This document shows, piece by piece, positions 9,595-13,554 of a DNA stretch of 64,000 nt. Source of the stretch: Arenicella xantha. GTDB lineage: Bacteria > Pseudomonadota > Gammaproteobacteria > Arenicellales > Arenicellaceae. The position numbers were made by a program, and so were the translations under genes. Positions within the stretch are counted from its first letter, which is position 1. Each line of letters starts with the position of its first letter. Under the pieces are notes generated by a model. The model did no database searches. It worked only from the letters and a program-made list of their open reading frames with translations, and had not been told where the DNA came from. The stretch covers positions 914,206 through 978,205 of the forward strand of contig NZ_QNRT01000002.1 of NCBI RefSeq assembly GCF_003315245.1, in the 5' to 3' direction.

Positions 9595-10575
9595 CTATTT
9601 CTTGATTGCGGAGACATCGTCCCACGTATAACCATTGTTGATTAAGATAGCTCTCAGCTTCTCTAATGCTTGCATCTGAATTTGCCGCACACGCTCACGA
9701 GTCAAACCGACCGCCTCAGCCACCTGGTCCAAGGTTTGCGGCTCACCATAAACAACATCGTCACCATGCAAGCCAAGGCCTTGTAAACCATAGCCTTGTA
9801 AACCATAGCGGCGCTCGATGATATCGCGCGGTCGATCTGCCAAGAAGTCCAACCACTCAACCAAGTGATCATGCACTTCATGTTGCTGCACCACCGCCAT
9901 AGGATTCTCTGAATCCTTATTTTGGTAGGCATCCAACAGCGTGAAATTATTAATGGCATTGCCACCCAGTGGTGCATCTACTGACTGCGAGGAGCGATTC
10001 AAGTTTATTAATCGCCCTAGATCACTCATTGTGTGGTCAGTATAGTCTGATATCTCTCTCAGGTTCGGTTCGTGCTGCAGGGTTTGAACTAGCTCATAAC
10101 TCACGCGTTTATACTTATTCAGCGCGCGAACAATATGTATTGGTAGCCGTACCGTGCGTGACTGATTCATGATAAACCGTTCAATTTCATGACGGATCCA
10201 CCATGCAGCATAAGTCGAAAAACGAAAGCCCTTTTCTGGATCATACTTTTCCACTGCGTGCATCAAGCCAATATTGCCCTCTTCGATTAGATCCATTAAC
10301 GCAACATCCGTGGCAAAATATTTACGTGCAATCTTTACCACCAAACGCAAATTTGACTCAATCATTTGGTCGCGAGCAGCAGCATCGCCTTGCTGTACGC
10401 GTCGACCTAAGTCGAGCTCTTGAGCGGCAGTGAGCAGAGGTACGAACTCTATATCTCGCATATAAAGGAACTCGGCATCATGATTAATCCGACAACGAGA
10501 CACAGCACGAGGTGTCGCCGAATTCTTATGCGGCGATAGTGGAACAGACGGAGATTTGCCGATATGTCGTACCAA
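9595..10575 (-). CDS. rpoS: Stationary-phase sigma factor RpoS with a repeat insertion in region 4
   Basis: RpoS directs RNA polymerase to stress and stationary-phase promoters. The 326 residues show region 1.2-2 (MRDIEFVPLLTAAQELDLGRR; LIEEGNIGLMHAVEKYDPEKGFRFSTYA), region 3, and region 4 ending in LTRERVRQIQMQALEKLR. Placement after nlpD is the classical rpoS context. Between the helices of region 4, where relatives read RRFGLRGH then STLEEV, this protein has three five-residue repeats (YGLQG, YGLQG, LGLHG; 257-271) plus GDDVV, an insertion of about 14 residues. The helix-turn-helix itself is intact. A long N-terminal leader of about 35 residues precedes region 1.2. Confidence 0.94.
   Translation of the reverse strand: MVRHIGKSPSVPLSPHKNSATPRAVSRCRINHDAEFLYMRDIEFVPLLTAAQELDLGRRVQQGDAAARDQMIESNLRLVVKIARKYFATDVALMDLIEEGNIGLMHAVEKYDPEKGFRFSTYAAWWIRHEIERFIMNQSRTVRLPIHIVRALNKYKRVSYELVQTLQHEPNLREISDYTDHTMSDLGRLINLNRSSQSVDAPLGGNAINNFTLLDAYQNKDSENPMAVVQQHEVHDHLVEWLDFLADRPRDIIERRYGLQGYGLQGLGLHGDDVVYGEPQTLDQVAEAVGLTRERVRQIQMQALEKLRAILINNGYTWDDVSAIKK
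9779..9808 (-). repeat. 15-bp tandem duplication inside rpoS
   Basis: The 15-base unit CCTTGTAAACCATAG (plus strand) occurs twice in perfect tandem. On the coding strand it reads TATGGTTTACAAGGC and encodes Y-G-L-Q-G per unit; a degenerate third copy lies next to it at about 9764-9778. The unit keeps the reading frame, so copy-number change would lengthen or shorten region 4 of RpoS by five residues without a frameshift. Confidence 0.95.
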
Positions 10576-10633: not shown

Positions 10634-11500
10634 CTAGCGTGGCGGCAGATGTTTAAGCGGGTCGACCGGCTGGCCTTCTCGACGTATTTGGAAGTGCAGC
10701 GCGGCTATGCGCTGATTATTAACACCAACAGTGGCTATCTTTTGTTGCGACCGAACGGTTTGCCCTTCACGCACATAAATGTCTTGATTGTGCGCATAGG
10801 CACTCAAAAACTCTTCATCGTGCTTAATAATAATAAGATTACCGTAGCCTTTAAGGCTGTTACCCACATACACAATCTCACCTGGCTTGGCCGCCGTCAC
10901 CGACTGCCCTCGTGTCGCACGAATATCAATTCCTTGGTGTCCTCGACCCGCGGTAAATTTACCAACCACCGTGCCAATCGTTGGCCATCGCCAAGCTTGC
11001 CCACCACTCTTAACTACTGCTTTAGGTTGAGAGGTGGTTTTGATGCTAGGTTTGGGTTTGCTCGCTACAGTCTTACTTGCACTCGATGGAGGTGTAGCCA
11101 CTGGTTTAACAGGCTTTTTTTGCGCCGGCTTATCAACCGCGCGCGCGGCTGACCGAGTTACCGGCTTAGCGCTTGCCTTAGGCTTGTTAGCCGCCGCCAC
11201 CGGCCGCGAGGTAAAGCCAATTGGCTCGGTCAGACGAATGCGCTGACCAACCTGCAATTTACTGGTATCTCGGATGCCGTTCCATGCAGCCAATTTATTC
11301 ACATTTAACCCGAGAGCAAATGAGATGCCATGCAGCGTGTCACCTGGCTGCACAATTCGTATCAATTGGCCACCAAGACGCTCGGTCTCTTGTCTCACGG
11401 TCGTCACTTTACGTTCTTCCACCGCCACTTTAGTTGGTGGTTTGCAGGCAGCTAACAGCGCAAATACGATACAGATAGTTAAACTACGGTAGCGCGGCAC
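10634..11500 (-). CDS. nlpD: Lipoprotein NlpD (LysM plus degenerate LytM domain)
   Basis: NlpD is an outer-membrane lipoprotein that in relatives activates the amidase AmiC during cell separation. The 288 residues show a lipobox LAAC with lipidated C19, one LysM peptidoglycan-binding motif (about 45-90), a Lys/Pro/Ala-rich linker, and a C-terminal LytM/M23 domain (about 170-285). GHQGID keeps the HxxxD zinc motif, but the normal HxH pair reads ALH (AALHFQI), so one zinc ligand is lost. That loss is typical of NlpD activators, which lack hydrolase activity. It lies directly upstream of rpoS; in other species the rpoS promoter lies within nlpD. Confidence 0.93.
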   Translation of the reverse strand: MPRYRSLTICIVFALLAACKPPTKVAVEERKVTTVRQETERLGGQLIRIVQPGDTLHGISFALGLNVNKLAAWNGIRDTSKLQVGQRIRLTEPIGFTSRPVAAANKPKASAKPVTRSAARAVDKPAQKKPVKPVATPPSSASKTVASKPKPSIKTTSQPKAVVKSGGQAWRWPTIGTVVGKFTAGRGHQGIDIRATRGQSVTAAKPGEIVYVGNSLKGYGNLIIIKHDEEFLSAYAHNQDIYVREGQTVRSQQKIATVGVNNQRIAALHFQIRREGQPVDPLKHLPPR

Positions 11501-11506
11501 TGGGTT

Positions 11507-12100
11507 TTACGCTAAATGAGTTAAATAATAGACCAAACCACCGGCACCAACGACTAGCAAGGTTCCCCAGCCTAGCCACTCAACCTTCTGAAGCAGCGTC
11601 TCCTCGAGTCGGTCACCGCCCAATCGAACCAAACCAGCAACTAAGAAGAAGCGTGCCCCGCGACCAACCAACGAAAGCAATACAAACGGTAAAAATGCAA
11701 TGCTCATGACGCCCGACGCGATGGTAAATATTTTATAGGGCACAGGCGTAAAACCCGCTAAAAGAATAATCAACACACCATATTGATTGTAATTATGTTT
11801 GATCAGCTCGAACGTTTCATGTGCATCGAAAAACAGCAGAAACTGCTCGCCATACGAATCAAACAAAAACCGCCCAATCATGTAACCCGCCATCCCGCCG
11901 AGCACCGACATGACCGTGGTTATAGCAGCCAAACGCCATGCTTTGGCACGATTCGCTAACACCATTGGTGCAAGCATTACGTCTACCGGTATTGGGAAAA
12001 ATGAAGACTCTGCAAAGCTGACTCCGGCCAAGTATTGTTCAGCATGCGGATGCTTTGCCCATTGCAAAATTTTCGTGTAAATCGGTTCAAATAACTTCAT
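11507..12100 (-). CDS. YqaA-like VTT/DedA-family membrane protein
   Basis: This 197-residue inner-membrane protein belongs to the VTT (DedA/SNARE-associated) superfamily. It has the re-entrant motif region SFAESSFFPIPVDVMLAPMV near the N-terminus and a second ILLAGFTPVPYKIFTIASG segment; both contain the Pro-rich half-helices of the family. About four to five hydrophobic spans are visible. DedA-type proteins have been linked to lipid scrambling and membrane-potential maintenance, but the substrate of the YqaA branch is not established. It is packed between pcm (2-base gap) and nlpD (6-base gap), so it is co-transcribed with them. Confidence 0.85.
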   Translation of the reverse strand: MKLFEPIYTKILQWAKHPHAEQYLAGVSFAESSFFPIPVDVMLAPMVLANRAKAWRLAAITTVMSVLGGMAGYMIGRFLFDSYGEQFLLFFDAHETFELIKHNYNQYGVLIILLAGFTPVPYKIFTIASGVMSIAFLPFVLLSLVGRGARFFLVAGLVRLGGDRLEETLLQKVEWLGWGTLLVVGAGGLVYYLTHLA

Positions 12101-12102
12101 GA

Positions 12103-12780
12103 CTATCCTAGCCCAGCAAGGCGGGGAACAAAACGCACCGCCTCTATTTCTTGTTGCACCAAACCATTGCTGGTTTTGTCAATAACGATTAAATGCTGCC
12201 GCGCATCTCGGCCTACCGGCATTACCACTCGACCACCAATAGCCAATTGATCAATCAGTTCGGGCGGTACATCCTCGGATACAGCGGCAGCCAAAATGCC
12301 GTCGAAGGGAGCGTAATCGGTCATTCCAGCAAACCCATCGCCATGCCGAAAAACCACATTCCGAACGCCCAAATCATACAAACGATCACGTGCGGCGCGA
12401 TGCAACTTAACGATCCGCTCAATACTTACCACTTGTGTACATAATGGTGCCAACACCGCGGTTTGATAGCCACAACCAGTGCCAATCTCCAGCACCTTTG
12501 CGCGCGGCTTATTCAATAAGGTTTGCGTCATTAGCGCAACGGTATAGGGCTGCGATATAGTTTGACCATGCCCGATCGGCAACGCAGTATTTTCGTACGC
12601 TCGACTCGCTAAGGCTTCGTCAACAAACACGTGGCGCGGTAAACTCTGCATCACGTCTAACACGTTAGTGTCGTTGATCCCCATGGTTCTAAGTTGATCA
12701 ATCAAACGCTTGCGGGTACGGTCAGAAGTCATTCCGATACCAGCATATTGAGACTTATGTAATTGGTCGCTGTAGCTCAT
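12103..12780 (-). CDS. pcm: Protein-L-isoaspartate O-methyltransferase
   Basis: This enzyme methylates abnormal L-isoaspartyl residues with S-adenosylmethionine and starts repair of aged proteins. The 225 residues contain the family motif PIGHGQTISQPYTVALM and the SAM-binding motif LEIGTGCGYQTAVLA, followed by VSIERI and GDGFAGMTDYAPFD. Length is normal. Its start lies 3 bases after the surE stop, and the adjacent rpoS operon fits a role in stationary-phase survival. No anomalies are visible. Confidence 0.96.
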   Translation of the reverse strand: MSYSDQLHKSQYAGIGMTSDRTRKRLIDQLRTMGINDTNVLDVMQSLPRHVFVDEALASRAYENTALPIGHGQTISQPYTVALMTQTLLNKPRAKVLEIGTGCGYQTAVLAPLCTQVVSIERIVKLHRAARDRLYDLGVRNVVFRHGDGFAGMTDYAPFDGILAAAVSEDVPPELIDQLAIGGRVVMPVGRDARQHLIVIDKTSNGLVQQEIEAVRFVPRLAGLG

Positions 12781-12783
12781 GAG

Positions 12784-13554
12784 TTACATTTCGTCCAACC
12801 AAACTTGCACATCATCTACATAAGCACTATCAGCAAAGCGTGCACTCAATGGTGTGATCGATGCAAAACCCTGAGCAACCGCTTCAAAATCTTGCATTTT
12901 GGATCGCTTAGTTTTTCGAAATGGCCCTGCCGCGCCCAGTCGGTATACGGCATTATCGCCATCCCCCGATTCACGGCTCGATATCAACGGTGCCTCGCGC
13001 TCACCAAGCACTGTTGCTTTATAGCCGCGCAAATCGGCGGCAGGCACATCGGGCACATTTACATTTAAAACTGAAATCAACGAACGATAGTGCAAATGTG
13101 ACATCGCGTTGACCATTTGCACGGCAAGATACGCGGCTGTTTCATAGTGCTGTACATTACGCTCGGTAACCGACAACGCGATAGCCGGCATCGCCAAAAA
13201 ACGCGCCTCCATGGCACCAGCAAAAGTACCCGAGTAAAACACATCATCGGCTAAATTAGTGCCATTGTTGATACCGCAAATCACCAAGTCAACGGGCTCA
13301 TCGACCAGATTCAACAAGCCCAGATAAACGCAATCGACCGGCGTTCCGTCAACCACATACTGATCCTCAGCGACACGTTCAACCGCGACCGGTTGACGCA
13401 GGCTAATGCCCATGCCGCAGCCACTCCGATCAGACTTAGGCGCGACCACAGTAACGCGGTGATATTGATTCTTTAGGGCTTGATGCAACACCGCTAATCC
13501 GGGAGCATCAAAACCGTCATCATTGCTGATTAAAATATGCAAGGCTGGCAACAA
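12784..13554 (-). CDS. surE: 5'-nucleotidase SurE
   Basis: SurE is a metal-dependent survival nucleotidase acting on nucleoside 5'-monophosphates. The 256 residues contain the N-terminal metal site SNDDGFDAPG, the motif SGCGMGISL, the central GTPVDCVYLGL and the INNGTNLADDVFYSGTFAGAMEA loop. No ATG or GTG lies between the in-frame upstream stop and the conserved core. The start is therefore a TTG: at 13554, 13551 or 13542. The last would give M-HILISNDDG, the usual family start, but no strong ribosome site distinguishes them. It is the first gene of the surE-to-rpoS series. Confidence 0.94.
   Translation of the reverse strand: MLPALHILISNDDGFDAPGLAVLHQALKNQYHRVTVVAPKSDRSGCGMGISLRQPVAVERVAEDQYVVDGTPVDCVYLGLLNLVDEPVDLVICGINNGTNLADDVFYSGTFAGAMEARFLAMPAIALSVTERNVQHYETAAYLAVQMVNAMSHLHYRSLISVLNVNVPDVPAADLRGYKATVLGEREAPLISSRESGDGDNAVYRLGAAGPFRKTKRSKMQDFEAVAQGFASITPLSARFADSAYVDDVQVWLDEM

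Follow-up and report, generated by a model that had tools for sequence, protein, structure and literature searches.

The rpoS gene of Arenicella xantha most probably encodes a functional RpoS in which the loop between sigma regions 4.1 and 4.2 has undergone a lineage-specific, fixed lengthening; from the sequence comparisons we place the probability of this reading at about 0.7. The gene lies within the 64,000-nucleotide stretch of DNA that was analysed (the window), all coordinates below being those of that stretch. The gene and its neighbours were placed as follows.

9595..10575, minus strand: rpoS (RNA polymerase sigma-S), 326 aa with a TTG start, assigned by Pfam, nearest solved relatives and synteny.
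10634..13554, minus strand: nlpD, dedA, pcm and surE, upstream of rpoS.

The upstream neighbours are taken to be surE, pcm, dedA and nlpD; the DedA-like gene occupies window positions 11507-12100, between pcm and nlpD. In relatives from other families of the order, nlpD adjoined rpoS in 7/7 loci (L010-L016; in L016 by an nlpD edge fragment only), and a dedA match was found beside nlpD in six of the seven, some of these matches being edge fragments. Each of the Pfam sigma70 regions 1.2, 2, 3 and 4 scored above cut-off in the A. xantha protein, and the six top distinct PDB sequences were all RpoS chains. The best matches in both sequence and fold were the Escherichia coli and Pseudomonas aeruginosa RpoS proteins (PDB 5ipl, 6omf, 6kj6, 7f0r, 7vf9), which share with it sigma70 regions 1.2 to 4 and the recognition-helix motif LTRERVRQIQ, but which have a 6-residue loop before the helix-turn-helix (21 residues in A. 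xantha) and a Q, rather than an H, at the position of sigma70 Q437. Sigma-S function is most likely for the A. xantha protein, as judged by this conservation.

The protein nonetheless fell below both NCBIfam RpoS cut-offs (343.7 against 394; 332.8 against 378.7), as did each of the five RpoS fragments scanned from the six genus relatives (284-293 aa; L033-L037), these cut-offs being annotation thresholds and no biological feature. Since these proteins score below the cut-offs while that of an order relative (P0002) clears them, automated annotation may under-call rpoS in the Arenicella clade. Seven genomes of another family in the order (f2; G032, G043-G048) each gave two RpoS-like matches; a TGA in one of the G032 copies is probably the stop codon of that copy, and none was seen inside the shorter match.

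The repeat units and the residues that come after them were placed as follows.

9778..9807, minus strand: perfect 15-bp tandem duplication encoding YGLQG YGLQG, residues 257-266 (Tandem Repeats Finder, direct scan).
9763..9777, minus strand: degenerate third unit LGLHG, residues 267-271, which by hand alignment matches the second GL unit of the genus relatives; MAFFT gaps it differently.
9748..9762, minus strand: DDVVY, residues 272-276, likely a second extra 5-residue step, boundaries uncertain.

The initial annotation had described repeats YGLQG, YGLQG and LGLHG at residues 257-271, held in the DNA as a perfect 15-base tandem duplication and followed by GDDVV. The three repeats were read again from the 326-aa frame, and the duplication was recovered both by Tandem Repeats Finder (9778-9809, period 15, 2.1 copies, 100% match; the top score of the 22 rows for the window) and by a direct scan, in which a 17-base run at lag 15 was the longest perfect tandem match in the window for periods of 4-60. 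Runs of at least 17 bases at a lag of at least 12 appeared in 0/40 simulated first-order Markov sequences of equal length. GDDVV is indeed present (271-275), but its G is already the last residue of LGLHG, and the residues that truly come next are DDVVY, a pentapeptide present only in A. xantha among the seven rpoS genes of the genus (comparison with six relatives). The range assigned by that annotation, 9749-9829, takes in the repeat feature plus part of the preceding helix. The two YGLQG copies were identical at 15/15 bases, synonymous positions included; the LGLHG unit has 9/15 bases in common with them (counted by eye), so that there are two perfect copies only.

A contingency-type switch by slippage had also been suggested for this repeat. 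In such a locus, changes in copy number of the 15-bp unit would tune RpoS activity within the population. Contingency loci are many-copy short repeats whose change in length alters frame or promoter; the simple-sequence loci of this kind resemble the rpoS repeat in being tandem repeats within a coding region, and differ from it in that the latter consists of a long in-frame unit present in few copies and offers no on/off frame shift. A perfect tandem duplication does exist here and a one-unit change would stay in frame; against this, 2.1 copies of a long unit permit no switching of frame or promoter, and the loops of the other six rpoS genes of the genus, read by eye, hold no perfect repeat of such kind. 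We regard a contingency locus as very improbable, and as the best reading it was ruled out by the two copies and the in-frame unit. An assembly or sequencing artefact in the A. xantha genome is very unlikely. In its favour, the exact duplication was seen in one genome only; against it, the 32-bp array is in frame and would fit within a normal sequencing read, the assembly is 99.3% complete in 29 contigs, of which this one measures at least 978 kb, and the same site is extended in all six genus relatives that have rpoS.

The position of the extra residues relative to the helices of region 4 was drawn from an AlphaFold model and from alignment.

9805..9837, minus strand: second helix of region 4.1, predicted at residues 247-257 and ending in the RRYGL motif (AlphaFold model).
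9736..9798, minus strand: whole loop from FGL (YGL here) to TL, 21 residues (260-280); the genus relatives have 11 and the class sequences sampled have 6.
9730..9747, minus strand: GEPQTL, residues 277-282, the start of the helix-turn-helix; GExQTL in 7/7 RpoS of the genus.
9637..9732, minus strand: stretch spanning helix 282-289 and the recognition helix 293-313 (AlphaFold model; alignment).

The initial annotation had put the extra residues within sigma region 4, in the loop ahead of the 4.2 helix-turn-helix and where relatives have a short turn, and this placement held: three solved RpoS chains align with a 15-residue gap at the site. In the AlphaFold model of A. xantha RpoS, residues 258-281 were predicted as coil, flanked by helices 247-257 and 282-289, with pLDDT below 50 at residues 263-275 and with the recognition helix 293-313 intact. 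A relative having a loop five residues longer than the class standard (+5) was modelled with the same helices and a 14-residue coil (235-248). The models had low pTM (0.38 and 0.41) and included no holoenzyme; they were used for local helix boundaries only.

The counterpart loop of sigma70, I565-Y571, varies in sequence among known structures and has a reported role in the orientation of the recognition helix and in promoter contact (PMC4236625). The sigma70 residues reported to interact with the -35 box include R562, D570, Y571 and L573, and those reported to bind core include R562, F563 and I565 (PMC4943231). Given these reported roles of the sigma70 loop in helix orientation and promoter contact (PMC4236625), an effect of the lengthened loop on promoter recognition, as the initial annotation had proposed, is plausible.

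We examined the length of this loop across the genus and the class, using one genome per species. Measured from FGL to TL, it was 6 residues in 89/89 RpoS-like class sequences read directly, 11 residues in each of the six other genus genomes bearing rpoS, and 21 residues in A. xantha. The 89 sequences were made up of 60 stepped down a list of 150 rows, 9 with a net gain of at least 2 residues, and 20 that were mostly the weakest matches, the weakest of all being possibly RpoS-like paralogues and not orthologues; a sequence pattern read 19 of the final 20, and L264 (6 residues, with GL replacing TL) was read by eye. The wider class survey, undertaken with a standard RpoS query, took in the best 150 matches together with 80 of 100 lower-scoring genomes picked by eye (leaving out 20 genomes with best E of about 1e-115 to 1e-117) and covered best matches down to 1e-68. 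Among the 238 class matches thus listed (150 + 88), none showed an extended loop outside the genus, as judged by net match length against the standard query; three had a net length gain of more than 3 residues, and all three had the standard loop. A rare, very divergent extended loop could have been missed by this survey. When the A. xantha region 4 was itself used as query, 15/369 class genomes matched at E 1e-10; three were of the genus and carried an insert, and the other 12 had the standard loop. Literature searches turned up no description of this insert, and no publication on RpoS in Arenicella.

The six genus relatives (L004-L009, five of which were also retrieved as L033-L037; the RpoS sequences of L034, L035 and L036 are identical to those in G001, G016 and G008) are like A. 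xantha in having nlpD adjoining rpoS in each, the same histidine at the Q437 position, and GExQTL; their loop is already +5, with the [YF]GLxx pattern. They are unlike A. xantha in having a loop of 11 residues with neither the perfect 15-bp duplication nor DDVVY. The consensus of the genus loop is [YF]GLxx-[YFHS]G[LR]x-RGExQTL, a pattern that suggests a pentapeptide duplication behind the genus +5 step as well. A. xantha grouped with two species that are both +5 (G005 and G015; support 89/88; 0.963) and the remaining four +5 carriers fell outside this group, and for this reason the simplest history would be a +5 state common to the genus and ancestral, followed by +10 on the A. xantha branch. 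The 15-bp copy, being exact, is probably recent and the youngest step, whereas the residues belonging to the second +5 step are uncertain because the gap placement of MAFFT differs somewhat from the hand alignment. Since the other six rpoS genes of the genus are already +5 at this site, the sequences point to the extension being a property of the lineage which grew further in A. xantha, and not a one-off.

A second feature of the protein is found in region 2.4.

10189..10191, minus strand: His129, at the position of sigma70 Gln437, region 2.4 (promoter position -12), from ungapped alignment to solved RpoS.

Around this position A. xantha RpoS reads WWIRHEIER against WWIRQTIER. The histidine is present in 7/7 RpoS of the genus (A. 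xantha and L004-L009); in contrast, of 84 class sequences readable there (5/89 were unreadable), 83 have Q and one has E, and the RpoD of A. xantha itself has Q. In E. coli, the sigma70 change Q437H is reported to suppress a -12 T-to-C promoter change (PMC2613000). Histidine was also found at this position in five more distant sigma factors among 80 loci (L064, L078, L085, L087, L093), all of which have an ordinary loop.

These observations raise the possibility of adaptive retuning, in which the long loop would touch DNA (upstream or at -35), the beta flap or an activator and, together with the histidine at the Q437 position, would set the promoter preference of the clade apart. The retention of the +5 extension and of GExQTL in all seven rpoS genes of the genus is in keeping with this, as are the near exclusive Q of the class at a position where the genus has only H, the behaviour of sigma70 Q437H, and the part reportedly played by the sigma70 loop in orienting the recognition helix and contacting the promoter (PMC2613000, PMC4236625). 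However, the 10 species-specific residues are repetitive and predicted to be disordered, the five distant sigma factors pair the histidine with an ordinary loop, so that the two changes need not occur together, and many clade-specific substitutions could be neutral. We hold retuning to be a tentative reading, possible and the less favoured of the two; it overlaps in part with the explanation by a fixed, lengthened loop.

The gene is not retained throughout the genus. An rpoS match at E 1e-60 was obtained for 7/18 genus genomes (3/11 of the most complete), and none at that threshold for the other 11/18, among them 8 of the 11 most complete; rpoS is thus dispensable in the genus. Completeness is 80-87% for G009, G010 and G017, and for the less complete genomes an assembly gap may explain the lack of a match. 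In each of the five rpoS-less loci that were read (L184-L188, from G002, G006, G012, G013 and G003), alaC came next after nlpD and rpoS was absent from the interval, and all four of nlpD, dedA, pcm and surE were matched in these relatives (5/5). On a tree of 16 rows (without G009, G017 and two outgroup rows) the labels for rpoS presence require two changes, with one change in 6% of 200 bootstrap trees; a single clade of rpoS-less species, or a single loss, was not rejected (AU p 0.367).

The constraint on the retained genes was assessed from dN and dS, computed for five of the ten pairs intended. The only pair with usable dS was that of the sister species G005 and G015 (dN 0.040, dS 1.57), whose values indicate strong purifying selection on rpoS in these two species; dS was saturated in the three pairs computed with the A. 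xantha gene. The dN values for rpoS/rpoD, which are rough, were 0.173/0.049, 0.188/0.049 and 0.249/0.078 for these three pairs, and 0.040/0.017 and 0.213/0.092 for the two pairs without it, i.e., rpoS dN is 3.2-3.8 times that of rpoD in the former and 2.3-2.4 times in the latter. The higher ratio could represent somewhat looser constraint on the A. xantha gene, or it could represent adaptation.

It follows that decay of RpoS has to be weighed as a serious rival, whereby the loop would be one of several changes toward loss of the gene, as in the members of the genus that lack it. The 11/18 genus genomes without an rpoS match, the clean absence of the gene between nlpD and alaC at 5/5 loci, and the raised rpoS/rpoD dN of the pairs that include the A. 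xantha gene all speak for decay; the open frame, with all conserved regions and LTRERVRQIQ intact, and the strong purifying selection on the sister pair G005/G015 speak against it. On balance we consider decay unlikely, and less so than a contingency locus.

We therefore return to a functional RpoS with a fixed, lengthened loop as the preferred explanation, the points counted against it being the higher rpoS/rpoD dN in A. xantha, the 11/18 genus genomes without rpoS, and the low pTM of the models. The +5 extension is common to the seven rpoS genes found in the genus, and on the A. xantha branch 10 further residues were gained, five of these as an exact 15-bp in-frame duplication of the pentapeptide with which the 4.1 helix ends. 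Both sequence and model show intact helices on either side of the loop, and an intact recognition helix. The longer loop would bulge out flexibly next to the -35 DNA, and such a bulge may be affordable because sigma-S, described as tolerant of degenerate -35 elements (PMC6917491), would depend only weakly on the -35 element. The loop would be expected to alter -35 or upstream contacts modestly at most, without acting as a switch. A 9-bp in-frame duplication within rpoS arose during laboratory evolution of E. coli (PMC2973815); its authors consider the majority of their rpoS mutations probably non-functional, and the duplication therefore illustrates the origin of such a change and not its tolerance.

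The extension in A. xantha RpoS is real, lineage-specific and structurally well placed, and the protein is most readily taken for a variant of one already known. A bolder but testable reading is that RpoS of the clade differs in how it reads both ends of the promoter. It would have Arenicella RpoS retuned at -12 by a natural equivalent of Q437H and at the -35 side by a growing 4.1-4.2 loop, the lineages of the genus having either rebuilt RpoS specificity by this route or lost rpoS; we consider this conceivable, with the odds against it. The 4.1-4.2 loop, to which a role in positioning the recognition helix is ascribed, is of one length in all 89 class sequences read, and a clade in which it grew in 5-residue steps is thus a natural experiment; the same clade has, as its normal state, a substitution that in sigma70 suppressor genetics alters how -12 is read. 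Together with the loss of rpoS in other members of the genus, these features make the clade a tractable case of the drift or rebuilding of promoter specificity in an alternative sigma factor.
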